Shown piece by piece: positions 5,959 to 38,100 of a stretch of DNA of 64,000 nt. Numbering within the stretch: the first letter of the stretch is position 1; every line of letters starts with the position of its first letter. Source of the DNA: Tardiphaga sp. (lineage in GTDB: Bacteria; Pseudomonadota; Alphaproteobacteria; Rhizobiales; Xanthobacteraceae); the NCBI RefSeq assembly GCF_028290495.1, contig NZ_JAQGJT010000025.1:1-64000 (forward strand), written 5' to 3'. Position numbers and translations under genes: made by a program. Below the pieces are notes generated by a model that saw only the letters and a program-made list of their open reading frames with translations, was not told the origin of the DNA and made no database searches.

Positions 5959-6720
5959 ATGTCCGCCATCTTCGACGTCAGTCAAGAAACCATTCTGATT
6001 ACCGGCGCCTCGCAGGGGCTAGGGCGGCAGTTCGCGCGGGTGCTTTCGGCGCATGGCGCGGCCGTGGTGCTGGCGGCGCGGCAGACCGCGAAGCTGAAGA
6101 GCCTGCAAGACGAGATCGTCGCGAAAGGTGGGCGCGCGATCGCAGTGCAGATGGATGTCACCATTACCGGATCGATCGCAGCCGCCATCGACACTGCGGA
6201 AGCGGCGCTGGGCCCGATCAGCGTGCTGATCAACAACGCCGGTATCGCCGTGGAGAAGCCCGCGGTCGAGCAGACCGAGGCCGACTGGGACGCCGTGATG
6301 TCAGCCAACCTGAAGGGCGCTTATTTCACCGCGACCGAGATCGCCCGCCGGATGATCGCGCGAAAGCAGCAAGGCAACATCGTCAACGTCGCCTCGGTGC
6401 TCGGCTTCGGTGTGATGAAGTTCGTAGCCCCCTATACGATCTCCAAGGCCGGTATCGTGCAGGCGACCAAGGCCCTGGCGCTGGAACTGGCGGGCCAGGG
6501 CATCCGCGTCAACGCGCTGGCGCCGGGCTATATCGATACCGACATCAACCATGCGTTCTGGGCGACCCCGGCCGGCGAGCGGCTGGCCAAGCGGATTCCG
6601 CAGCGCCGGGTCGGCGACGACTCGGATCTCGACGGCGCGATCCTGCTGCTGGCGTCCAACGCCTCGCGTTACATGACCGGCAGCACGATCACCGTCGACG
6701 GCGGCTTCCTGCTGACCTGA
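5959..6720 (+). CDS. Short-chain dehydrogenase/reductase (classical SDR)
   Basis: 253 residues. NAD(P)-binding TGASQGLG near residue 15, NNAG near residue 89, and a complete catalytic tetrad with NVASVLG (Ser) and YTISK (Tyr/Lys). The C-terminal MTGSTITVDGGFLLT is typical of FabG-like enzymes. GGGAG precedes the ATG at 5959 by 6 bases; an in-frame ORF to 5842 has no such signal. Substrate unknown. It is divergent from the cvpA-like gene with about 115 bases between the starts. Confidence 0.88.
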   Translation: MSAIFDVSQETILITGASQGLGRQFARVLSAHGAAVVLAARQTAKLKSLQDEIVAKGGRAIAVQMDVTITGSIAAAIDTAEAALGPISVLINNAGIAVEKPAVEQTEADWDAVMSANLKGAYFTATEIARRMIARKQQGNIVNVASVLGFGVMKFVAPYTISKAGIVQATKALALELAGQGIRVNALAPGYIDTDINHAFWATPAGERLAKRIPQRRVGDDSDLDGAILLLASNASRYMTGSTITVDGGFLLT

Positions 6721-6953
6721 TCGGCCACGCTAAGATGCTGGAATCGCGCGACTTTCAATTATTTTTCGGGCAATCGTCATAAATGCGCGAAAACACTCAC
6801 AATGGCCCTTTCCAAACCCGCTGCGCATTGGTAGATAACCCTCGCACCGCAGGCACTGCCTCGGTGACTTCTCAGGAAGCCTCCGGACTGGGATCGATCG
6901 ACGCTTAGGCGTTGGCCGAATTCATTTCGTTCTCCGGTTTCTCGAAGGTTTGG

Positions 6954-7030
<77 letters not shown>

Positions 7031-7056
7031 AACTTATTAAATCATTACAATGAATT

Positions 7057-7079
7057 AGCCCGCCCCTAGCGGGCTTTTT
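7057..7079 (+). terminator. Intrinsic terminator of tRNA-fMet
   Basis: AGCCCGC (7057-7063), loop CCCTA, GCGGGCT (7069-7075), then four more T residues. It lies 26 bases after the tRNA 3' end. Confidence 0.9.
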
Positions 7080-7480
7080 CATGTGTTACAGCCCTTCCTA
7101 TTCATTGCGTCTTATTTCTAATTGATTTCAGGTGCTTACGCGAATTCTTGCCGAGGATTGCTCACCGTTACTAATTTTTCTTAGGCACACGGTGGGCACA
7201 TGAAACGGTAAACCCGCGTGGGGTTCGATGGTTATCGACGCCTTGTAAGATCTCGGCCGGCGAGCAGCTCCCAATAGCTGACCTAAGCAGATACAGCGAA
7301 ATCCTCTGTCGCCCCCGGATCAGCCGCGAAGTCTTCATCTGGGAATCCGAGTTACGCGCTATTGCGGCAATTTTATTGAAGGTGCTGGCAGCCGTGCTGG
7401 GCGGCGTTGGCATGGCCTATTCGCCGCAGCATCAAGTGCAGCCCTCTCTCGACAAGAGGCAACTAGTCCTGGCTCGCCGG
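7080..7480. other. Intergenic stretch without a supportable gene
   Basis: About 400 bases between the tRNA terminator and the MFS gene. Composition is visibly more AT-rich than the neighbours. A 240-base minus-strand ORF (7171-7413) and an open plus-strand frame encoding WESELRAIAAILLKVLAA (about 7340-7393) have no credible start or ribosome-binding site. It could be decayed coding sequence. No integrase and no copy of the tRNA 3' end was found. Confidence 0.5.
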
Positions 7481-17931: not shown

Positions 17932-18534
17932 ATGACCTTCACGCTTCCCGAACTGCCTTACGCCTATGACGCGCTCGCGCCTTATATGTCGAAGGAAACG
18001 CTGGAATTCCATCACGACAAGCACCATCAGGCTTACGTGACCAACGGCAATAACCTGCTCAAGGGCACCGAATTCGAAGGCAAGTCCCTCGAGGAGATCG
18101 TGAAGGGTTCGTTCGGCAAGAACGCGCCGCTCTTCAACAATGCCGGTCAGCACTACAACCATCTGCATTTCTGGAACTGGATGAAGCCGAACGGCGGCGG
18201 CGACAAGCTGCCCGGCCGTCTCGAGAAGAAGATCACCGAGGACCTCGGCGGTCTCGAGAAGTTCAAGACCGATTTCGCCGCCGCAGGCGTCGGCCAGTTC
18301 GGCTCCGGCTGGGCCTGGCTCTCGGTCAAGAATGGCAAGCTGGAAATCTCCAAGACCGCGAACGGCGAAAGCCCGCTGGTGCATGGCGCGACCCCGATCC
18401 TCGGCGTCGATGTCTGGGAGCACTCTTACTATATCGACTACCGCAACCGCCGCCCGGACTATTTGAAGGCGTTCGTCGATCATCTCGTGAACTGGGAATA
18501 TGTCGACGATCAGCTCGGCAAGGCCGGCGTGTAA
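17932..18534 (+). CDS. sodB: Superoxide dismutase [Fe/Mn]
   Basis: 200 residues. Converts superoxide to hydrogen peroxide and oxygen in the cytoplasm. Metal ligands are His27 (LEFHHDKHH), a His in HYNHLHFWNW, and Asp and His in DVWEHSYYIDYRNRRPDY. The Gln/Gly pattern (NAGQHYN, Gln before the second ligand loop, AAAGVGQFGSGWAWL) looks Fe-type, but Fe versus Mn use cannot be fixed by eye. Preceded by an EcfG-type promoter and followed by a strong terminator, so monocistronic. Confidence 0.95.
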   Translation: MTFTLPELPYAYDALAPYMSKETLEFHHDKHHQAYVTNGNNLLKGTEFEGKSLEEIVKGSFGKNAPLFNNAGQHYNHLHFWNWMKPNGGGDKLPGRLEKKITEDLGGLEKFKTDFAAAGVGQFGSGWAWLSVKNGKLEISKTANGESPLVHGATPILGVDVWEHSYYIDYRNRRPDYLKAFVDHLVNWEYVDDQLGKAGV

Positions 18535-18562
18535 CAAGCGGTCCGTTTTCGGATCGGACAAG

Positions 18563-18591
18563 AGGGCGGTGGCGCAAGCTGCCGCCCTTTT
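18563..18591 (+). terminator. Intrinsic terminator of sodB
   Basis: AGGGCGGTGGC (18563-18573) pairs with GCTGCCGCCCT (18578-18588) around a GCAA tetraloop with two G-T pairs, then TTT. It follows the sodB stop by 28 bases. Confidence 0.88.
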
Positions 18592-18623
18592 GCTTGCGTA
18601 GCTTGGGCTACAAGCTGACCCCT

Positions 18624-18707
18624 CGTCGTTGCGAGGAGCCCTTGCGACGAAGCAATCCAGTCTTCGCTTGCGGCTCTCTGGATTGCTTCGCTACGCTCGC
18701 AACGACG
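18624..18707. repeat. REP-like palindromic repeat, copy 2
   Basis: Outer arms CGTCGTTGCGA (18624-18634) and TCGCAACGACG (18697-18707). Compared with copies 1, 3 and 4 both arms carry a paired change (A to G left, T to C right), so the hairpin is kept. Confidence 0.87.
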
Positions 18708-18736
18708 ACCGATAGGATTTAGCAAGGCCGGCGATC

Positions 18737-19114
18737 ATGATGAATTACGTTCTGGTGTTTATCGGCGGCGGTCTTGGCTCGACCTTGCGCCATACGGTCA
18801 ACATGGTCAGCGCGCGGACCCTCGGCACCGCGTTTCCGTGGGGCACCTTCCTGATCAACATTACCGGCTCGATTGTGATGGGACTGATTGCCGGTTACCT
18901 CGTCTTCAAGGGGCAGGCGTCGCAGCCGTGGCGGCTGTTTCTGATGACCGGTATTCTCGGCGGCTACACCACCTTCTCGGCGTTTTCGCTCGATACTGCA
19001 CTGCTGTACGAGCGCGGCGAGATCGGGCTGGCGCTGCTGTACGTGCTGGGTTCGGTCGGGCTGGCGATCGCCGGCCTGTTTGCGGGCCTGGCGCTGGTCC
19101 GGCATTTCACCTGA
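18737..19114 (+). CDS. crcB: Fluoride efflux channel CrcB/Fluc
   Basis: 125 residues with four membrane segments. Exports fluoride across the inner membrane as a dual-topology dimer. Signatures: GGGLGSTLRH near the start, the GTFLINITGSIVMG segment (central Asn) in TM2 and GILGGYTTFSAFS in TM3, including the Phe-box and Na+-site region. No fluoride riboswitch was found; the region upstream is occupied by the repeat. ATG 18737 is followed by a second ATG. Confidence 0.93.
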   Translation: MMNYVLVFIGGGLGSTLRHTVNMVSARTLGTAFPWGTFLINITGSIVMGLIAGYLVFKGQASQPWRLFLMTGILGGYTTFSAFSLDTALLYERGEIGLALLYVLGSVGLAIAGLFAGLALVRHFT

Positions 19115-19131
19115 GCCGTTGCAGCGGGTGA

Positions 19132-19146
19132 TGTTATAATATAACA
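19132..19146. promoter_or_regulatory. Zur box upstream of the zinc operon
   Basis: TGTTATA-A-TATAACA, a 15-base perfect palindrome around a central A, matching the alphaproteobacterial Zur operator. It ends 48 bases before the small His-rich gene. A longer copy lies at 38080-38100. Confidence 0.8.
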
Positions 19147-19194
19147 AATGGACAGGGCGGCCGCGGCCGCCGCTTTGTTCGTCCAGGCGTATCG

Positions 19195-19371
19195 ATGGCC
19201 CATTCGCACACCCACCACACCCATTCGCACCATCACCACGATCCCCTTGCGCCACACCCCGCGCAGCCGGCGCCGTGGTCGATCCTGCGCATGACCCTGC
19301 TGGCGCGGCTTGGCGCGGCCGTTCTGGTCAGCGCCGCGATGTGGGCGGTCGTGCTGACGGCGATGCGCTGA
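19195..19371 (+). CDS. Small His-rich membrane protein in the zinc operon
   Basis: 58 residues, below the usual gene-calling size. Residues 1-16 read MAHSHTHHTHSHHHHD, with nine His in the first 15; His21 follows. Residues 34-56 (TLLARLGAAVLVSAAM onwards) form one membrane helix. The stop overlaps the znuC start by one base (TGATG), so translation is coupled. Position directly after the Zur box and before znuCBA suggests a zinc-binding accessory of the importer. No named family is recognised. The ribosome-binding site is weak (AGG), but the frame is supported by the overlap and the His tract. Confidence 0.8.
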   Translation: MAHSHTHHTHSHHHHDPLAPHPAQPAPWSILRMTLLARLGAAVLVSAAMWAVVLTAMR

Positions 19372-20126
19372 TGACCGCGCAACTGACCTTCTCCGACGTC
19401 ACGCTGGGCTATGACCGCCATCCGGCGGTGCATCACCTCAATGGCGAGATCGCCGCGGGCGCCTTGCTCGCGGTCGTCGGTCCCAACGGCGCCGGCAAGT
19501 CGACGCTGTTTCGCGGCATCGTCGGCATCCTGAAGCCGCTGGCGGGGACCATCGGGCTTGGCGACCTCAAGCCGCGCGAGATCGCCTATCTCCCGCAAAG
19601 CGTCGATATCGACCGCACGTTCCCGATCTCGGTGTTCGATTTCGTCGGCACCGGCCTGTGGCGCTCCACCGGCCTGTTCGGCGGGCTTGGCCGCAAGGCC
19701 GGCCAGCAGATCGGGCAGGCGCTGGCCGCGGTCGGCCTCACCGGCTTCGAGAACCGCACCATCGGGACGCTGTCCGGCGGCCAGATGCAACGCATGTTGT
19801 TCGCCCGCGTGCTGCTGCAGGACGCCCGCGTTATCGTGCTGGACGAGCCTTTCAACGCGATCGACGCCAAGACCTCCACCGACCTGATCGGGCTTGTCAG
19901 GCACTGGCACGCCGAGCGGCGCACCGTGCTGGCCGCGCTGCATGACATGGAACTGGTGCGCGACAATTTCCCGGAAACGCTGCTGCTGGCCAGGGGCGCG
20001 GTGGCGTGGGGCGCGACGCGCGAGGTGCTGACGGCAGACAACCTGCTGGAAGCGCGGCGGATGTGCGAGGCGTTCGACGACGGCGCCTCGGCCTGCGTCG
20101 TCGATGCCAGACCGCGGGCGGCCTGA
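19371..20126 (+). CDS. znuC: Zinc ABC transporter ATP-binding protein
   Basis: 251 residues from ATG 19371. Hydrolyses ATP to drive zinc uptake with ZnuB and ZnuA. Walker A GPNGAGKS (about 37-44), Q-loop AYLPQS, signature LSGGQ (about 134), Walker B VIVLDEPF (about 155) and the switch His in LHDMELV. It starts inside the stop of the His-rich gene and ends 4 bases before znuB. An upstream in-frame extension to 19275 is the shadow of the His-rich gene. Confidence 0.93.
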   Translation: MTAQLTFSDVTLGYDRHPAVHHLNGEIAAGALLAVVGPNGAGKSTLFRGIVGILKPLAGTIGLGDLKPREIAYLPQSVDIDRTFPISVFDFVGTGLWRSTGLFGGLGRKAGQQIGQALAAVGLTGFENRTIGTLSGGQMQRMLFARVLLQDARVIVLDEPFNAIDAKTSTDLIGLVRHWHAERRTVLAALHDMELVRDNFPETLLLARGAVAWGATREVLTADNLLEARRMCEAFDDGASACVVDARPRAA

Positions 20127-20130
20127 GCGC

Positions 20131-21000
20131 ATGATCTATGACGTGCTGATCGCGCCCTTTGTCGATTTCGAATTCATGCGCCGGGCGCTGGCTGGCGTGG
20201 TCGCGCTCGCGCTCGGCGGCGCGCCGGTCGGCGTGTTCCTGATGCTGCGCCGGATGAGCCTGGTCGGCGACGCCATGGCGCATGCAATCCTGCCGGGCGC
20301 CGCTGTCGGCTTCCTGTTCTCCGGGCTCAACCTGTTCGCGATGACCTTTGGCGGGCTGATTGCCGGCTTCTCGGTGGCGCTACTCGCGGGCCTCGTCTCG
20401 CGCGTGACCGAGATCAAGGAGGATGCTTCGCTCGCGGCCTTCTATCTGGTCTCGCTGGCGCTCGGCGTCACCATCGTTTCCATGAACGGCACCAACATCG
20501 ACCTGCTGCACGTGCTGTTCGGCAATATTCTGGCGATGGACGACCAGACGCTGCTGGTGATCGCCTTCAACGCCACCATCACGCTGCTGGTGATGGCGGT
20601 GATCTATCGCCCGCTGGTGATTGAATGCGTCGATCCGGTGTTCCTGCGCACGGTGTCGCGGGCCGGTGCGCCAGCGCATCTGGCGTTTCTGGCGCTGGTC
20701 GTCATCAATCTCGTCAACGGCTTCCATGCGCTCGGCACGCTGCTGGCGGTGGGGCTGATGGTGCTGCCGGCCGGCATCGCGCGGTTCTGGTCGCGCGACA
20801 TCACCGGCATGATGGTGATCGCGGTCGCCAGCGCCATGCTGTCGGGCTATCTCGGCCTGGTACTGTCGTTTCAGACCAAGGTGCCGTCGGGCCCGGCGGT
20901 CATTCTGGTGGCAGCCGCGCTGTATGTGATTTCAGTTCTGTTTGGCCGTGTCAGCGGACTGGTGCGGCAGTTGTTTCCCGGCCGGCATCTGGAAGCGTAG
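20131..21000 (+). CDS. znuB: Zinc ABC transporter permease
   Basis: 289 residues from ATG 20131. ABC-3 family permease with about eight membrane helices; the family pattern RRMSLVGDAMAHAILPGAAVG near residue 35 is the cytoplasmic coupling region. It forms the inner-membrane channel with ZnuC and receives zinc from ZnuA. Four bases separate it from znuC and eight from znuA. Confidence 0.92.
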   Translation: MIYDVLIAPFVDFEFMRRALAGVVALALGGAPVGVFLMLRRMSLVGDAMAHAILPGAAVGFLFSGLNLFAMTFGGLIAGFSVALLAGLVSRVTEIKEDASLAAFYLVSLALGVTIVSMNGTNIDLLHVLFGNILAMDDQTLLVIAFNATITLLVMAVIYRPLVIECVDPVFLRTVSRAGAPAHLAFLALVVINLVNGFHALGTLLAVGLMVLPAGIARFWSRDITGMMVIAVASAMLSGYLGLVLSFQTKVPSGPAVILVAAALYVISVLFGRVSGLVRQLFPGRHLEA

Positions 21001-21008
21001 GAGCGATC

Positions 21009-21887
21009 ATGCGGCGTATAGGCTATTCGATGGTCTATGCGGTGGCGCTGTTGTTCGCGTCGGCGGCCGCGTCGTTTGCGCAGGACAGGATCGATGTCGT
21101 CGCCAGTTTCTCGATCCTCGGTGATCTCGTCAAAAACGTCGGCGGGGATCGCGTCAGCATCACCACACTGGTCGGCCCCAACGGCGACGCGCACGTCTAT
21201 ACGCCGTCGCCGCAGGACGCCAAAAAGATCACCGATGCGAAGCTCGTCGTGGTCAACGGGCTCGGCTTCGAGGGCTGGCTGCCGCGGCTGGTGAAGTCCT
21301 CCGGCGGACAGGCGGTGATCGTCATGGCCTCCGACGGCATCGCGGAGCGCATTTTGGGCACCCGCACCGATCCGCATGGCTGGCAGTCGGTGGTCAATGC
21401 CAAGGCCTATGTCAGCAATATCCGCGAGGCGCTGGTCGCGGTCGATCCGGCAGGGGCTGCGACCTACAAGGCCAATGCGACGGCCTATCTGGCGAAGCTG
21501 GACGCGCTCGACGGCGAGGTGCGGGCCGCGGTGGCCTCGATCCCCGAAGGACGTCGCCAGGTGATCTCGACCCACGATGCCTTCGGGTATTTCGCCGATG
21601 CCTATGGCATCGGTTTTGTTGCGCCGCAGGGCGTCTCGACCGATTCCGAACCCAGTGCGCGGGATCTCGCGGCGATCATCAGCCAGATCAAGGCAGCCAA
21701 GATTCCCGCGGTTTTCCTCGAAAACATCAGCGACCCCCGCCTGATGCGCCGGATCAGCGCCGAGACCGGGGCGAAGATCGGCGGAACGCTGTATTCGGAC
21801 AGCCTGACGGCGGAAAACGGCGACGCCCCCACTTACATTGACATGGTCAGGCACAATATAAAGACGCTGACGAGCGCGCTGAATTAA
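21009..21887 (+). CDS. znuA: Zinc ABC transporter substrate-binding protein
   Basis: 292 residues. Signal peptide 1-24 (cleavage SFA-Q), then a cluster A-I metal-binding protein. Likely ligands: His62 (GDAHVYTPSP), His123 (DPHGW), His189 (STHDAFGYF) and Asp264 (LYSDSL). The His-rich flexible loop usual in ZnuA between the first two His is absent, so it is also compatible with manganese; the Zur box argues for zinc. Periplasmic. The small His-rich protein of the same operon could supply the missing His-rich element. Confidence 0.9.
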   Translation: MRRIGYSMVYAVALLFASAAASFAQDRIDVVASFSILGDLVKNVGGDRVSITTLVGPNGDAHVYTPSPQDAKKITDAKLVVVNGLGFEGWLPRLVKSSGGQAVIVMASDGIAERILGTRTDPHGWQSVVNAKAYVSNIREALVAVDPAGAATYKANATAYLAKLDALDGEVRAAVASIPEGRRQVISTHDAFGYFADAYGIGFVAPQGVSTDSEPSARDLAAIISQIKAAKIPAVFLENISDPRLMRRISAETGAKIGGTLYSDSLTAENGDAPTYIDMVRHNIKTLTSALN

Positions 21888-21955
21888 CCAGCGCGGGGGC
21901 ACCCCTGCCGCCGGCGCGCTGCCAATACCCCGCCCGATACAATGCCGGAGTGACC

Positions 21956-23008
21956 ATGTCTGAAGCGACTGCCGCCAAAATTCCCGTGACCGTGCTGACC
22001 GGCTATCTCGGCGCCGGCAAGACCACGCTCCTGAACCGCATCCTGTCGGAGAACCACGGCAAGAAATACGCCGTGATCGTCAACGAATTCGGCGAGATCG
22101 GCATCGACAATGACCTGATCATCGGCGCCGACGAAGAAGTCTTCGAGATGAACAACGGCTGCGTCTGCTGCACCGTGCGCGGCGATCTGGTGCGCATTCT
22201 CGACGGCCTGATGAAGCGCAAGGGTAAGTTCGACGCCATCATTCTGGAGACCACCGGCCTCGCCGATCCAGCCCCCGTGGCGCAGACCTTCTTCGTCGAT
22301 GAAGACGTGCAGTTGCACACCCGCCTCGACGCGGTGGTGACGGTGGCCGACGCCAAGTGGCTGAGCGAGCGGCTCAAGGACGCGCCGGAAGCCAAGAACC
22401 AGATCGCTTTCGCCGACGTGATCGTGCTCAACAAGATCGATCTGGTATCGAAGCCCGAACTGGCCGAAGTCGAAGCCCGCATCCGCGCCATCAATCCCTA
22501 TGCGAAGCTGCACCGCACCGAGCGCGCGCAGGTCAAATTGTCCGATGTGCTGGAGCAGGGCGCCTTCGATCTTGAGCGTATTCTGGAGATCGAGCCGGAA
22601 TTCCTCAATGCCGGCGATGGTCACGACCACGATCATCACGACCACGGTCATGACCATCATCACCACGGCCATGATCACGGCCACGGCGGCGTGAAGCACT
22701 ATCACGACGAGGACATGCAATCGCTGTCGCTGCGCACCGACAAGGCGCTCGACGCCTCGACTTTCATGCCTTGGCTGCAGGGGCTCGTCGCCGCAGAAGG
22801 CGCCAAGATCCTGCGCTCCAAGGGCATCCTGTCGTTCCACGGCGACGATGACCGCTACGTGTTCCAGGGCGTGCACATGATGCTGGAAGGCGATCACCAG
22901 CGCGCCTGGAAGGATGGCGAGAAGCGCGAGAGCCGTCTCGTCTTCATCGGTCGCGATCTGCCGGAGCAGGCGATCCGCGACGGCTTCGCCAACTGCATTC
23001 CCGCCTGA
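21956..23008 (+). CDS. COG0523 (CobW/ZNG1-type) metal-chaperone GTPase
   Basis: 350 residues from ATG 21956. Walker A GYLGAGKTT (16-24), the metal motif GCVCC (68-72), Walker B-like ETTGLADP, and NKID (about 158). Between the GTPase and C-terminal domains lies a His/Asp tract (about 221-253, GHDHDHHDHGHDHHHHGHDH). The family moves zinc or cobalt to client proteins using GTP. It begins 68 bases after znuA and its stop overlaps the WD40 start, so it belongs to the zinc block functionally. No second Zur box was seen before it. Confidence 0.9.
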   Translation: MSEATAAKIPVTVLTGYLGAGKTTLLNRILSENHGKKYAVIVNEFGEIGIDNDLIIGADEEVFEMNNGCVCCTVRGDLVRILDGLMKRKGKFDAIILETTGLADPAPVAQTFFVDEDVQLHTRLDAVVTVADAKWLSERLKDAPEAKNQIAFADVIVLNKIDLVSKPELAEVEARIRAINPYAKLHRTERAQVKLSDVLEQGAFDLERILEIEPEFLNAGDGHDHDHHDHGHDHHHHGHDHGHGGVKHYHDEDMQSLSLRTDKALDASTFMPWLQGLVAAEGAKILRSKGILSFHGDDDRYVFQGVHMMLEGDHQRAWKDGEKRESRLVFIGRDLPEQAIRDGFANCIPA

Positions 23009-24024
23009 TGTCGGACTTCAACCCCCTGCAGGAGCAGGAATCCATCGTCTCGGTTACCGACCGCGTGCGTCCCGTGACGATTGGCGCGGCGGTTGTCGCC
23101 GTGCATTTTCTCGGCGACAAGGCCGCGTTCGTCTGCGCCGAGGAAAATGTCGTGCTGGTCGATGAGATCGGCCGGAGCGTTGTCGCCGTGCATGGCGGTG
23201 GCATTCTGTGCACCGCGGCCGATGACCTGCGGCTGCTGATAGGCGGCGACGACGGCAAGCTGGTCGAGCTGAATCGCAACGGCGATGTCACGGTGCTCGC
23301 CACCGACGCCAAGCGCCGCTGGATCGACAATGTCGCCGTGCATCCCGACGGCGCGGTGGCGTGGTCGGCCGGCAAGACGGCGTTCGTGCGCAGCCCCAAG
23401 GGCGAAGTGAAATCGCTCGACGTGCCCTCGACCGTCGGCGGCGTGGCGTTTGCGCCGAAGGGCCTGCGGATCGGCATCGCGCACTACAACGGCGTGACGC
23501 TGTGGTTTCCCAACATGGCGGCGAAGCCCGAAATTCTGGAATGGGCCGGCTCGCATCTCGGCGTCACCTTCAGTCCGGACAACAAGTTCCTCGTTACCGC
23601 GATGCACGAGCCGGCGCTGCACGGCTGGCGGCTGTCGGATAGCAAGCACATGCGGATGACCGGCTATCCGGCGCGCGTGCGCTCGATATCCTGGACCACC
23701 GGCGGCAAGGCGCTGGCGACCTCCGGCGCCGACAGCGTGATCGTCTGGCCGTTCGGCAGCAAGGACGGTCCGATGGGCAAGGAGCCCGGCATGCTGGCGC
23801 CGCTCAAGGCCAAGGTGACGATGGTCGCCTGCCATCCGAAGCAGGAAATTCTCGCCTGCGGCTACAGCAACGGCACCATCCTGATGGTGCGGCTGACCGA
23901 CGGCGCCGAGATTCTGGTGCGCGCCAACAAGGGCGAGCCGGTGACGGCGCTCGGCTGGAACGCCAGGGGCACGCTGCTGGCTTTTGCCGATCAGAACGGC
24001 GACGCTGGCCTGTTGGAGATTTGA
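23008..24024 (+). CDS. WD40 repeat protein coupled to the COG0523 GTPase
   Basis: 338 residues, no signal peptide. Several WD40-like blades can be traced (for example AVHPDGAVAWSAGKTAFVRS, SPDNKFLVTAMHEPALHGW, SWTTGGKALATSGADSVIVW, WNARGTLLAFADQNGDAGLL), consistent with a seven-bladed propeller and no other domain. Its ATG overlaps the GTPase stop (ATGA arrangement), implying coupled translation. Propellers of this kind are protein-interaction platforms, so a partner or client adaptor for the chaperone is likely. Confidence 0.85.
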   Translation: MSDFNPLQEQESIVSVTDRVRPVTIGAAVVAVHFLGDKAAFVCAEENVVLVDEIGRSVVAVHGGGILCTAADDLRLLIGGDDGKLVELNRNGDVTVLATDAKRRWIDNVAVHPDGAVAWSAGKTAFVRSPKGEVKSLDVPSTVGGVAFAPKGLRIGIAHYNGVTLWFPNMAAKPEILEWAGSHLGVTFSPDNKFLVTAMHEPALHGWRLSDSKHMRMTGYPARVRSISWTTGGKALATSGADSVIVWPFGSKDGPMGKEPGMLAPLKAKVTMVACHPKQEILACGYSNGTILMVRLTDGAEILVRANKGEPVTALGWNARGTLLAFADQNGDAGLLEI

Positions 24025-24033
24025 CGGCCGCGA

Positions 24034-24074
24034 CTTGCTTCATCTTTTCCCGGAAGCGGGATGAGGGAAGCAAG
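24034..24074 (+). terminator. Hairpin after the WD40 gene
   Basis: CTTGCTT (24034-24040) pairs with AAGCAAG (24068-24074), with an inner TCCCG/CGGGA stem around GAAG. There is no T run, so it may be a processing or attenuating hairpin. Confidence 0.5.
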
Positions 24075-24090
24075 CGGCCTTCGCAAGTCA

Positions 24091-24141
24091 AAAAATAAAA
24101 ACGACCGGGATCGCTCCCGGCCACTGGCTTAAATGTGGAAT
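24091..24141. repeat. Inverted repeat, left arm of the acetyltransferase cassette
   Basis: Contains an A/T tract, CCGGGA-TCGC-TCCCGG (24105-24120), GCCACTGG and TTAAATGTGGAAT (24129-24141). The reverse complement matches 25048-25099, including 13 identical bases at the inner end. The T-rich side faces outward. A perfect 11-bp hairpin (GTGGAATCGCC/GGCGATTCCAC, 24135-24160) overlaps the inner end. Confidence 0.75.
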
Positions 24142-24322
24142 CGCCAAACGGCGATTCCACGGAGTTTTTGCCGCTGGCGAGATGCCCGCTTCATCACCGC
24201 AGCCCGGCAATCCAGGCTGTGGACCTGTTAACTGGGAATGATGGAAAGCGGTGATCCGGCCATGTAGATTTCCAAGCGAGCATCGGGCCGAACCGATGCA
24301 GTTACGCAAGGAAAAGCGATAA

Positions 24323-24880
24323 ATGTCGCATCAGGGTGGCGTCAGGATTGTTCACAGGCGGACGCCAGAATCCGCGGCGATGGTCGCGGAAACCAGGCGA
24401 GCAATGGCGATCACGGCCAAGCTCAATCGCCTGACATTCCATGACGTGGACGAAGTCCGGCTTCTTTTCAGCGAGCTTATCGGCAAGAAGGTAGACGACA
24501 GCTTTATACTGATCCCCCCATTCTACGCGACAGGGGGGAACGAAGTTCGCATCGGGCATCGCGTCTTCATTAATCAGAACTGCACGCTCTATGACCTCGG
24601 TGGCGTCGATATAGCCGACGACGTGATGATCGGACCGAATGTGAGCATCATCACGTCAGGCCATCCGCTCGAACCCTCGCAGCGGCGGTCGGTTACGATA
24701 GGGAAGCCCATAGTGATTGGGAGGAACGTCTGGATCGCAGCCGGGGCGACGATCATCGGAGGAGTGACCATCGGCGAAAACTCGGTCGTTGCTGCAGGCT
24801 CGGTGGTTACGAAGGACGTGCCCCCAAACACTCTTGTCGGAGGCAACCCGGCGCGGCCCATTCGCGCGCTTGGCGCCTGA
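24323..24880 (+). CDS. Sugar O-acetyltransferase, NodL/LacA/Maa family
   Basis: 185 residues. A left-handed beta-helix of hexapeptide repeats (IGHRVFINQNCTLYDLGG, then VTIGKPIVIGRNVWIAAGAT and ENSVVAAGSVVTKDVP), with the catalytic His in IITSGHPLEP. Uses acetyl-CoA on a sugar hydroxyl; acceptor unknown. The N-terminal Mac-type helix is present. Bases are less GC-rich at third positions than neighbours, and the gene is flanked by inverted repeats, which together suggest acquisition. Confidence 0.9.
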   Translation: MSHQGGVRIVHRRTPESAAMVAETRRAMAITAKLNRLTFHDVDEVRLLFSELIGKKVDDSFILIPPFYATGGNEVRIGHRVFINQNCTLYDLGGVDIADDVMIGPNVSIITSGHPLEPSQRRSVTIGKPIVIGRNVWIAAGATIIGGVTIGENSVVAAGSVVTKDVPPNTLVGGNPARPIRALGA

Positions 24881-35203: not shown

Positions 35204-37558
35204 TCAGAACTTCAAATTCGCAAACGCCCGCACATTCAGCCCGGGCATCAGCACGTCGTTCTTGTTGTAGGACGAGGCGTTGCGGATGTTCTCGTTGAGC
35301 AGGTTGTTGCCGACCAGCCCCACGGTCATCTCCTTCGCGCCATAGATCCGCGGATCGAGTTTCGTATTGTAGCTCACTTCCGCCTTCAGCAGATTGTAGC
35401 CATCGGTCGGCGTCTCCGCGATCACGGCGACATCGTTTTGCGCAAAGGCGTGCAGCAGGTTGATGCGGGTCAACCAGTTGGCATCGCGCCAGAACAGTCC
35501 GCCGCCGGCGCGTACCGGCGGGATTCGCGGCACGTTGCTGCCGTCCGCAAAGGTCGCGCGCACGATGTCGGCCTGGGCCTCGATGCCCCAGGTGCCGCCG
35601 TAGATCTGCGCGACATCGAGCTGGCTCTGGAATTCACCGCCGCGGAAGGTGGCGTCGCGCTGCGAGTAGATCGCCTGGTTCAGCTCCAGGCCGGGACCGG
35701 CGACGCAGACGCCATCGCCGCAGGTGTTGCCGGTGAGGCGACGATAGATGAAGCCGTTGAACTGGGTGTAGTAGCCGGTCAGTTCGAAGCGGAACGGCCC
35801 GGTGGCGCGGCGCAAGCCGACTTCCACCGACCTGGCGGTCTCGATGCCGAGATCGGGATTGCCGATGTCGAACGTCGTCGTCGCATCATGACCGCCGCGC
35901 GAAAACAGTTCGGCGGCCTTCGGCGCGCGCTCGACATATTGCCCGGTGACGCTGGCCGAAAGATTCCACGGCAGCGCCTGGATCAGGCCGAGGCTGAAAC
36001 TCTTCGGCGTGAACGACAGGTCGCGCCCGGTGGCCGCGCCGATAGCGCCGGGATCGGCTGCGAGGTCGAACGTGTCCGGAATGACGCTCGGCGTCGTGCC
36101 GGTGAGGTTGACGTGCTCGATGCGGCCGGCGACCTGCGCCTTGGTGGTCTCGGTGAACTTCAGCTCGTTGAACACATAGCCCGCCACCTTGGTGTTCTTG
36201 TTGGGATCCCACAATCCGTTCAGCGGACTGGTCGGGTCGTCGGGGCTCGGCGCCGTCAGTTCCTGATGGCTGGCCTGCACGCCGAACGCGGTGGTCACCG
36301 TGGCGAAGCGGGCGTTGAACGGCATCATCTGCAGTTCGATGCGGCCTTCCTGTTCCTTGTTGGTGAAGCGCTGGCGCACGCCGTCCGTCGTCGGATCATT
36401 GGGATCGGCGAGTCCGATCTCGCTGTGGCGATAGTCGGTGATCCCCGCCCAGAACCGGATGGCCTCGATCGCCGCGGCGTCCGGGCGGTACTCGCCCTTG
36501 GTGGTGAACTTGGTCTGGTGGCCGTCGATCCGCGTGCCGGCCGCCGCGGCTTCGCTGCCGGGGATATGATAGATGGTGTCGTTCTGCGTCAGCGCCGCGC
36601 CGATGAAGCCGCCGTCGAAGATCCAGGAGCCGCCGAGCGACGCGCCGCTCGACTGCATCGACGAATTCGGCTGGCGGCCGTTGAAGGCCTGGCCGGGGGC
36701 GGCATAGGGATAGCTCGGCACGTTGTAATCACTGGCGCGGCGGCCGTAGACGTCGGCATGAACCGCGACATTGCCGCCAGCGGCATCCAGCAGGATGCCG
36801 CCCTCGACGCCGCGATCGCCGGACGAGATCGAGGTCCGCGTCTCGGCATTCATGCACGACGCCTGCGTGCCGATCGAAGGCGCTTTGGCGGGCAGGCCAT
36901 AGCTCTGGAACGGCGCCACGGCGCAGGCCGGCAGCGCATCGGGAATCCGGTTGTTGCTCGCCGAGACCACGCCGCCGATCGACTGCGAACCGTAGCGCAA
37001 GGTGGCGGGGCCGCGGATCACCTCGACCTGGTTGGTCGCGAACGGATCGACCGGGACGAAGTGATCTTCGCCGAGATCGGAGGCGCCGTTGCTACTGACG
37101 CCGTTCTCGACGATGCCGACGCGGTTGACGTCGAGCCCCCGGATGATCGGCCGGCTCGCCGCGCCGGGCGCGTAGCCGGAAGACGTGATGCCCGGTTTGG
37201 AGAACAAGAGGTCGCCAAGCGTGGTGGCGCCGGAACGGCGGATCTCTTCATTCGGGATCACGGTGACGGTAGCGAACTGGTCGGTCACCACAGGCAGCAC
37301 GCCCTGCTGTGGTGCTGGCGCAGCCGCGGTGTCGGCGGGCGGTTGGCCGGCGTTGCGGCCGGGAGCGGCGCGCACGATGCGGGCGGGCGCACGCACCACG
37401 GCGGGCTTGCGGCGCGCGATCGGGCTCGGCGCGTTGACCGTGACGGCGGGCAGTTCGGTGGGGGCCGCGCTTTGCGCAAGCGCTGCGCCATCGAGCAGGC
37501 CGAGTCCGGCGATGGCGGAGCCGCCGAGCAGCACGGCGCGATTGAAACGGAATGGCAT
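35204..37558 (-). CDS. TonB-dependent outer membrane receptor (zinc, ZnuD-like)
   Basis: 784 residues. Signal peptide 1-28 (AALAQ), a Pro/Ala-rich linker, plug domain (about 92-215: VIPNEEIRRSGATTLGDLL and VEVIRGPATLRYGSQSIGG) and a beta-barrel ending in the C-terminal Phe. The plug resembles the zinc receptor ZnuD. A Zur box and a DUF2946 gene lie directly upstream on the same strand, so zinc uptake across the outer membrane is the likely task; other metals are possible. AGGA precedes the ATG by 6 bases. The gap to the DUF2946 gene is 119 bases. Confidence 0.85.
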   Translation of the reverse strand: MPFRFNRAVLLGGSAIAGLGLLDGAALAQSAAPTELPAVTVNAPSPIARRKPAVVRAPARIVRAAPGRNAGQPPADTAAAPAPQQGVLPVVTDQFATVTVIPNEEIRRSGATTLGDLLFSKPGITSSGYAPGAASRPIIRGLDVNRVGIVENGVSSNGASDLGEDHFVPVDPFATNQVEVIRGPATLRYGSQSIGGVVSASNNRIPDALPACAVAPFQSYGLPAKAPSIGTQASCMNAETRTSISSGDRGVEGGILLDAAGGNVAVHADVYGRRASDYNVPSYPYAAPGQAFNGRQPNSSMQSSGASLGGSWIFDGGFIGAALTQNDTIYHIPGSEAAAAGTRIDGHQTKFTTKGEYRPDAAAIEAIRFWAGITDYRHSEIGLADPNDPTTDGVRQRFTNKEQEGRIELQMMPFNARFATVTTAFGVQASHQELTAPSPDDPTSPLNGLWDPNKNTKVAGYVFNELKFTETTKAQVAGRIEHVNLTGTTPSVIPDTFDLAADPGAIGAATGRDLSFTPKSFSLGLIQALPWNLSASVTGQYVERAPKAAELFSRGGHDATTTFDIGNPDLGIETARSVEVGLRRATGPFRFELTGYYTQFNGFIYRRLTGNTCGDGVCVAGPGLELNQAIYSQRDATFRGGEFQSQLDVAQIYGGTWGIEAQADIVRATFADGSNVPRIPPVRAGGGLFWRDANWLTRINLLHAFAQNDVAVIAETPTDGYNLLKAEVSYNTKLDPRIYGAKEMTVGLVGNNLLNENIRNASSYNKNDVLMPGLNVRAFANLKF

Positions 37559-37677
37559 GGTGTGTCCTGACTATGCCGGCGCTACCGCGATGAACGAGGC
37601 GCGAACCGGGATCTGCGGGGCAGATCGAACCCTGAAAAGATCGCCGTGCGAATGCAGCGATCAGCAAAGCTTCAAGG

Positions 37678-38034
37678 TCAGGAGAGTGGTGGAGCGCGCG
37701 GCTGGAACGCGACGCCGGGCGTGGCGAGATCGACGAATTCAGCCGGTGTGGCGATCCGCCGGAATTCCATGGCCGGCGGCAGTTCGAGGACCGGCGGCGT
37801 CGCTGACAGCATCGTGCCGGCCATCGCCGTGACGGCGCAGATGTCGCATTGGTCGGCCGGGTGCTGGTCGTGGGCGGGGCCGGCAGGCGGCTGCGCCAGT
37901 TCGATCGACGCGCCGCCGGGCGAAGCCACCGCGCGGTCGGCATGGAAATGGCCGAACGCCAGCACCATCTGGATCGCCAGCGCGAACAGCGCCAGCCGGG
38001 ATCCCTGTGTGATGTGCCTACGAAACCAGTTCAT
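37678..38034 (-). CDS. DUF2946 family small protein
   Basis: 118 residues from ATG 38034 (MNWFRRHIT), or 124 from ATG 38052. An N-terminal hydrophobic helix or signal (LALFALAIQMVLAFGHF) is followed by a His-containing, Pro-rich region, QCDICAVTAM with a CxxC pair, and a C-terminal Pro-rich tail. DUF2946 proteins often stand beside metal-uptake TonB receptors and may bind a metal in the periplasm. Directly downstream of a perfect Zur box; likely co-transcribed with the receptor. Confidence 0.8.
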   Translation of the reverse strand: MNWFRRHITQGSRLALFALAIQMVLAFGHFHADRAVASPGGASIELAQPPAGPAHDQHPADQCDICAVTAMAGTMLSATPPVLELPPAMEFRRIATPAEFVDLATPGVAFQPRAPPLS

Positions 38035-38079
38035 GCCGAAAACGCCCTGCATCGGACGGGAAGCGATCTCCGCCGCAGC

Positions 38080-38100
38080 CGATGTTATAATATAACATCG
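38080..38100. promoter_or_regulatory. Zur box of the DUF2946/TonB receptor unit
   Basis: Arms CGATGTTATA and TATAACATCG are perfect complements around a central A (21 bases). The core TGTTATA-A-TATAACA is identical to the box at 19132-19146. It lies 28-46 bases upstream of the DUF2946 start. Confidence 0.85.

Follow-up and report, generated by a model that had tools for sequence, protein, structure and literature searches.

A conserved single-helix microprotein encoded ahead of the ATPase gene in AztA-type zinc importer operons: a candidate fourth subunit

The closest described systems are the zinc importers of the ZnuABC and AztABCD types. To our knowledge, no microprotein is known with ZnuABC of Escherichia coli, nor is a small single-pass subunit known in any zinc ABC importer. 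Tiny one-helix proteins that bind large membrane complexes, such as CydX, KdpF and AcrZ, are familiar from other systems, some small proteins inhibit membrane exporters, and the His loop of ZnuA is periplasmic. For AztABCD, the available portions of two papers mark a Zur motif ahead of aztA (PMC5387054) and report that transfer from AztD requires both the D-loop of AztC and each of the three His in it (PMC7463823). Here, a window of 64,000 nucleotides from Tardiphaga sp. (contig NZ_JAQGJT010000025.1, positions 1 to 64,000) was analyzed, in which a zinc importer operon of this kind starts with a small ORF for a His-rich, putative membrane microprotein (Table 1).

The zinc operon of the window and its first gene

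Table 1. Features of the zinc operon in the window
Feature	Position	Strand	Details
Palindrome GTTATAATATAAC, presumed Zur operator	19133..19145	.	exact match
Microprotein gene	19195..19371	+	58 codons and stop; members in 162/179 operons; dN/dS 0.26
His tract	19201..19239	+	residues 3-15, 9 His; lineage-specific extension
Predicted single transmembrane helix	19297..19365	+	residues 35-57; conserved Arg38 and Trp50; AlphaFold2
Codon of Val53, covaries with permease residue 145	19351..19353	+	covariation
AztA/ZnuC-type ATPase	19371..20126	+	PF00005; NCBIfam AztA 211.1 bits, cut-off 220
AztB/ZnuB-type permease	20131..21000	+	PF00950; NCBIfam AztB 259.2 bits, cut-off 280
Codon of permease Ala145, covariation partner of Val53	20563..20565	+	covariation; outer leaflet predicted from loop charge
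Zinc substrate-binding protein (SBP) without His loop	21009..21887	+	PF01297; NCBIfam AztC 305.7 bits, cut-off 350
COG0523/CobW-type GTPase, His-rich linker	21950..23008	+	PF02492, PF07683; downstream
WD40-repeat protein	23008..24024	+	WD40 models; downstream; AztD queries gave no match

The three transporter genes score above the cut-offs of PF00005 (91.5 bits), PF00950 (176 bits) and PF01297 (305.6 bits), which places them in a metal ABC importer of cluster A-I. Their best NCBIfam models are AztA, AztB and AztC rather than ZnuABC, each of the three scores lying below its cut-off, and the ZnuC, ZnuB and ZnuA models gave 92.1, 84 and 68.5 bits against cut-offs of 306, 284 and 268. This corrects the names znuC and ZnuA used in the original prediction. 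The permease matches PDB entry 9oko, named ZnuB, with an E value of 4.2e-19. The SBP is the only PF01297 protein found in the genome search and has at most one His per 20 residues; the usual His-rich loop is absent from it, as had been predicted. Further downstream, the genes of the GTPase, with its His-rich linker, and of the WD40 protein overlap by one base, and a Skermanella rosea plasmid (L168) has the pair in the same order, again downstream of the importer.

The product of the first gene, MAHSHTHHTHSHHHHDPLAPHPAQPAPWSILRMTLLARLGAAVLVSAAMWAVVLTAMR, has 58 residues with nine His among the first 15 and one hydrophobic stretch, and AlphaFold2 (17-row alignment) models it as one helix over residues 35-57 with a mean pLDDT of 87.6, so both the His-rich start and the single membrane helix of the original prediction were recovered. 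Its TGA (19369-19371) and the ATG of the ATPase gene at 19371 have one base in common, again as predicted, and the translation of the two is probably coupled. No Pfam or NCBIfam family was found for the window microprotein, searches with 45 microprotein cores against the same two collections gave weak single-member matches only (best E 0.018) and no family, and the microprotein had no match in the PDB at E<=1. An Rfam search over 18500-24400 returned nothing at gathering score and a sigma-70 scan of 19000-19400 found no promoter.

An exact GTTATANTATAAC palindrome lies 5' of the microprotein gene and, by its resemblance to published sites, is presumably a Zur box; the ORF is therefore placed between this site and the ATPase gene, as the original prediction held, with the Zur role presumed. 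At up to one mismatch, the 5.77-Mb assembly holds only two sites for the palindrome, 19133-19145 and 38084-38096, and this suggests a small Zur regulon. The second one, also a perfect Zur-like palindrome, precedes a DUF2946-like gene and a TonB-dependent receptor gene (together 35204-38052, minus strand); the former (37678-38052) scores below its Pfam cut-off and the latter spans 35204-37558. On the other side of the operon, between crcB and a gene that by eye is superoxide dismutase-like, an imperfect palindromic repeat at about 18609-18715 (GAAGCAATCCAG ... CTGGATTGCTTC) resembles a dispersed intergenic element.

Distribution and conservation of the microprotein family

The survey comprised 179 AztA loci: the window, 39 relatives, 67 class-wide loci, 12 plasmid records and 60 phylum-wide loci. 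The class-wide draw consisted of 289 genomes, of which 68, window included, have AztA at E<=1e-55; in the phylum-wide draw of 398 genomes 77 matched, four of them being left out of the locus set, and 12 of 39 plasmid records were taken in, with 27 left out. In 162 of these 179 AztA-type operons of Pseudomonadota, the ATPase gene is immediately preceded by a family member (E<0.01, Z=1000), as detected by an iterated core model whose final version was trained on positional hits. Among 24,649 other ORFs of the same loci, the control for this model, two matched at E<0.01, and one of these looks like a genuine member 1 kb upstream in L160. The first profile, built from 17 Nitrobacteraceae rows whose genomes are themselves among the 179 loci, found the upstream member in 134 of 179 operons at E<0.01 and in 150 at E<0.1, with one and 14 control ORFs, respectively, of the 24,649. 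All 30 loci from other classes (L175-L204), which cover each such genome with a match in the phylum-wide draw, have a member.

The conserved portion of the family is the helix of about 30 residues, not the His tract. In the 45 chosen core rows, an Arg (R38 of the window protein) and a Trp (W50) are invariant, the Trp being missing in some other members, e.g., L091 and L111. The distance to the ATPase gene is -4 (an ATGA overlap) in 81 and -1 in 10 of the 162 loci, and reaches tens of bases in some. Upstream of 96 of the 162 members, the best match to the palindrome has at most two mismatches, versus none of 162 in the control stretches, which are of the same length, lie inside aztA and differ in base composition from the upstream regions. 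In a whole-genome search of the 289 alphaproteobacteria, some of which supplied rows of the search model, 65 had a match at E<=0.01; of the best 30 genome-wide places, 29 immediately precede aztA and the other one falls at the end of a contig. Judged on these best 30 places, the microprotein gene appears restricted to the importer operon. Its presence or absence takes three changes on the AztA tree (179 rows), which, like all our trees, was a quick one, with 51 of 176 inner branches supported and with long-branch warnings.

A search of 61 genomes, the window's own included, gave matches at E<=1 in 51, and chance probably accounts for many of the weaker ones. Directly before the ATPase gene, the ORF is recognized by motif in 29 of 30 loci (28 of 29 relatives, the 30 including the window's own), and the remaining locus (L025, also numbered L147) has a diverged version. 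Over the 30-codon core, the median dN/dS is 0.26 (406 pairs, 29 loci) and pN is 0.18 versus a pS of 0.46, an order that is reversed in both shifted frames, so selection acts on the encoded protein. The homologs expected at this position in Nitrobacteraceae are present with their frame conserved; the other part of that expectation, a conserved His-rich tract, does not extend to the family, as only 54 of 162 members have one. This comparison of sequences confirmed the ORF as a real and conserved gene, encoding a predicted membrane microprotein of the zinc operon.

In 17 of the 179 operons no adjacent member was found (L154, L160, L163-L167, L170, L171, L205-L208, L210, L211, L213 and L225; Paracoccus, Klebsiella, several rhizobial and other genomes), and because of these the importer fold can evidently work without the microprotein. 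By tblastn with three AztD queries, AztD was found in seven of the 17, three of which are the sources of these queries, and in none of the 162 loci that have the microprotein, the window among them; 149 of the 162 extend at least 3.4 kb past aztA. In L160, the distant member mentioned above (234-440) is separated from the ATPase gene by another long open frame. A different arrangement is found on plasmid p155_1 of Bradyrhizobium sp. 155 (L170), with no separate microprotein before the ATPase. There, the open frame after the SBP (5988-7373) starts with the microprotein core (E 1.4e-10), inside which the annotated start falls, and continues with NxxGxxAF repeats (DUF7453). Six near-identical plasmids are the only ones in which this core-repeat fusion was seen. 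Going by the family name, "choice-of-anchor", the repeat domain may be exported and, if so, the fusion fits a helix with its N-terminus inside.

The gene is annotated as "hypothetical protein" in Skermanella and Paracoccaceae records and is absent from the annotation in Thioclava and Bartonella records, the Bartonella gene table describing itself as incomplete. Outside the 179 loci, the znuCBA operon of Neisseria gonorrhoeae (L269) has a 34-aa member (1385-1489) with the ATGA overlap and an E value of 3.6e-9. In the available portion of its description, the gonococcal importer consists of three genes, NGO_0170-0168, with the small ORF unmentioned, and a znuA mutant grew only with added zinc (PMC9280163). 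The microprotein is likewise undescribed in the portions available of the open-access literature searched, which included PMC12183173, PMC7463823, PMC5387054, PMC5082802, PMC4176598 and PMC9280163; the accessible text on Bradyrhizobium small ORFs (PMC5082802) has neither "znu" nor "ABC transporter", and that on the Caulobacter Zur regulon (PMC4176598) deals with a different transporter.

Topology, His tail and covariation with the permease

The flanks of the helix are strongly asymmetric in charge. Over the 162 members, Lys and Arg total 326 on the N-terminal flank and 42 on the C-terminal one, with an excess on the N-terminal flank in 155 members, equality in seven and the opposite in none. 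By the positive-inside rule, the N-terminus, and hence the His tail, would face the cytoplasm, so the tail probably lies on the cytoplasmic side of the membrane. With His-rich defined as at least five His in 15 residues, 54 of the 162 members qualify (53 by rule and L197 by hand), these counts, like the protein lengths, being approximate since start codons were set by rule and are too far downstream in L105 and L197 at least. The state changes 11 times on the tree, two of these changes falling in loci outside the class (L197 and L201). Given that the other 108 members are not His-rich, the tract cannot be the core function of the family.

Whether the microprotein is His-rich makes little difference to the presence of a His loop in the SBP. 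By rule, the SBP has such a loop in 17 of 48 loci with a His-rich microprotein versus 28 of 74 with other members, the SBP sequence to compare being absent in 40 further loci, and four loci of the same genus (L127, L129, L131 and L132) combine a His-rich microprotein with an SBP loop such as HDHGGKHDHGHDD; on the tree, this comparison leaves one usable pair. Among the 133 of 162 loci that extend 4.4 kb past aztA, a COG0523 gene follows in 41 of 50 His-rich versus 11 of 83 other loci, and a WD40 gene in 37 of 50 versus 5 of 83. As 34 of the 41 belong to one family and the tree test for COG0523 and the His tail again has one usable pair, we take this link as a hint and not as a result.

Covariation with the transporter proteins was analyzed in 119 loci with complete proteins, 43 of the 162 being left out for an incomplete AztA, AztB or SBP. 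The top z score of the APC-corrected mutual information is 8.7 for AztB, compared with 4.5 for AztA and 5.1 for AztC, and with gaps ignored the values are 7.9, 4.5 and 4.7, the pairs above z 4 then numbering 10 for AztA, 10 for AztB and 3 for AztC. When the AztB pairing was shuffled 60 times, the maximum reached 6.98 versus 8.26 observed, although such shuffles ignore relatedness. The top pair is residue 53 of the microprotein, three positions beyond W50, with residue 145 of AztB. Their states are Val/Ala in 71 loci, Ile/Gly in 17 and Ala or Thr with Val in five. All 17 rows with Gly145 in AztB have Ile53, across nine coded families and one record without a code, and two of the 19 Ile53 rows have Ala145 in place of Gly.

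On supported branches of a tree made from the concatenated transporter minus column 145, the contrasts of Gly145 versus Ile53 agree in eight cases, with none opposite and none without difference, and those of Ile53 versus Gly145 agree in eight, with none opposite and two without difference; the sign-test p of 0.008 is uncorrected for the choice of the pair post hoc as the maximum. For that reason, all state pairs were scanned for changes on the same branch. Among 342,240 state pairs with the ATPase, the permease and the SBP, Ile53/Gly145 is the clearest outlier, its Jaccard index of 0.8 with eight shared changes being the highest among pairs with at least four. The runner-up (Jaccard 0.5, four shared) is also with AztB, and no AztA or AztC pair reached a Jaccard index of 0.4 with five shared changes. 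It is only the ratio that singles out the AztB pair, as the largest raw counts of shared changes are 7 for AztA, 8 for AztC and 10 for AztB. In terms of residue size, the two positions correlate at -0.51 in the raw data and weakly when averaged by family (r -0.29, about 218th of 7,637 pairs), and an AztA-only tree with Ile, Leu, Met and Phe pooled left four usable contrasts (1.7 agreeing, none opposite, 2.3 without difference).

The position of the pair in the membrane can be estimated from loop charges. AztB has 0.12 Lys and Arg per sequence in loop 120-139 and 2.72 in loop 159-186, from which the helix beginning at about residue 140 would start outside and residue 145 would lie in the outer leaflet. 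If the N-terminus of the microprotein is inside, its residue 53, close to the other end, would be in that leaflet as well. Loop charge and N-in topology are separate arguments, and the geometries predicted from them fit each other.

Proposed role and comparison with known systems

We consider it fairly probable that the microprotein is a fourth, single-pass subunit of the zinc ABC importer, bound to its permease. This reading is based on the position in the operon, the near-exclusive association with aztA, the pattern on the AztA tree, the conservation of and selection on the protein, the charge bias, the covariation, the plasmid fusion and the member in the gonococcal zinc operon, and it is from such sequence evidence that we infer physical binding, topology and any function. 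The microprotein gene is the first in an operon that Zur presumably controls, and synthesis of the microprotein is probably coupled to that of the ATPase. The helix of the microprotein, N-in and C-out, would pack on the permease helix starting near residue 140, bringing residue 53 close, in the outer leaflet, to residue 145 of the permease, and would serve the stability, assembly or gating of the permease. Roughly one surveyed member in three, that of the window included, would also extend a His-rich N-terminal tail into the cytoplasm, close to where zinc leaves the importer; possible roles of the tail there are zinc buffering, inhibition of the importer at replete zinc and transfer of zinc to the GTPase (COG0523) encoded in the operon. 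That the tail handles zinc on the cytoplasmic side is probable for the lineage of the window. Of the original suggestion that the microprotein buffers zinc at ZnuB, the association with the permease gains from the covariation, and the buffering survives for His-rich lineages only and on the cytoplasmic side.

Three other explanations appear less likely than a fourth subunit. The one favored in the original prediction, that the His tract collects periplasmic zinc in trans in place of the missing ZnuA/AztC loop, draws on an SBP without the loop next to a His-rich peptide; it is hardly credible given that the charge bias places the N-terminus inside (155 of 162 members, seven ties and none N-out), that tail and SBP loop occur together (17 of 48, compared with 28 of 74 for other members), even within one genus, and that 108 of 162 members are tail-less. 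We have therefore rejected a periplasmic replacement of the loop. The frequent overlap with the ATPase start (-4 in 81 and -1 in 10 of 162 loci) would also be expected of a leader ORF, with an idle peptide whose synthesis serves only to make the aztA start accessible through coupling. Against this stand the conserved Arg and Trp, the dN/dS of 0.26, the covariation with AztB and, in some loci, a spacing of tens of bases between the two genes, so we regard this as very improbable.

It is also conceivable that a microprotein of zinc starvation acts mainly on another membrane protein, for instance by inhibiting a zinc exporter, as its single-pass helix and its encoding with uptake genes would allow. 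The best 30 genome-wide places point instead to the AztA-type transporter, the pattern follows the AztA tree, and, of the three transporter proteins compared, AztB gives the only strong covarying pair, with none in AztA or AztC, which makes another partner unlikely. A special form of the fourth-subunit reading takes the His tail as a cytoplasmic trans-inhibitor that, once zinc-bound, stops the importer at replete zinc. The predicted location of the tail and the covariation with AztB agree with it, yet such a tail is missing from 108 of 162 members, and we give it a small but real chance. For the fourth-subunit reading as a whole, a wider version can be offered tentatively, as possible though doubtful: a whole branch of proteobacterial zinc importers, gonococcal ZnuCBA included, may be four-part machines whose permease is clamped, in the outer leaflet, by a helix of about 30 residues; in several lineages this helix may have gained a cytoplasmic His tail, capturing zinc as it exits and either loading the COG0523 GTPase or gating the importer.

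The available portions of the literature describe such importers as an ATPase, a permease and an SBP, and a conserved extra part with a core of about 30 residues is easily missed. If true, an additional subunit would affect the expression, purification and structure determination of these importers and could account for the assembly or gating of the zinc permease. The proposal also offers a specific site, microprotein residue 53 and permease residue 145, and a possible route of zinc from the importer to a cytoplasmic chaperone.

Compared with known systems, the window shares with AztABCD of Paracoccus denitrificans the gene order ATPase-permease-SBP and the best NCBIfam models; it differs in that its genes are below all three AztABC cut-offs and in that no AztD was found. 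The AztABCD operons of two Paracoccus other than P. denitrificans and of one Klebsiella pneumoniae have no microprotein before aztA. ZnuABC of E. coli is a cluster A-I zinc importer like that of the window, whose genes score far below the ZnuABC cut-offs. Neisseria ZnuCBA (MntABC) has the same gene order and a small member with ATGA overlap, as in the window family; unlike the window microprotein, this member has no His tail. The ZnuA His loop and the AztC D-loop are, like the tail of the microprotein, flexible His-rich segments that handle zinc, but they sit in the periplasmic SBP, whereas the tail in the window is on a separate protein and predicted to be cytoplasmic. CydX, KdpF and AcrZ resemble the microprotein in one-helix size and in the binding of a complex proposed for it, although no family or PDB sequence match connects them. 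Small one-helix subunits are thus an already known kind; a family of candidate subunits of this kind in a zinc importer operon is, within the portions of the literature searched, new.
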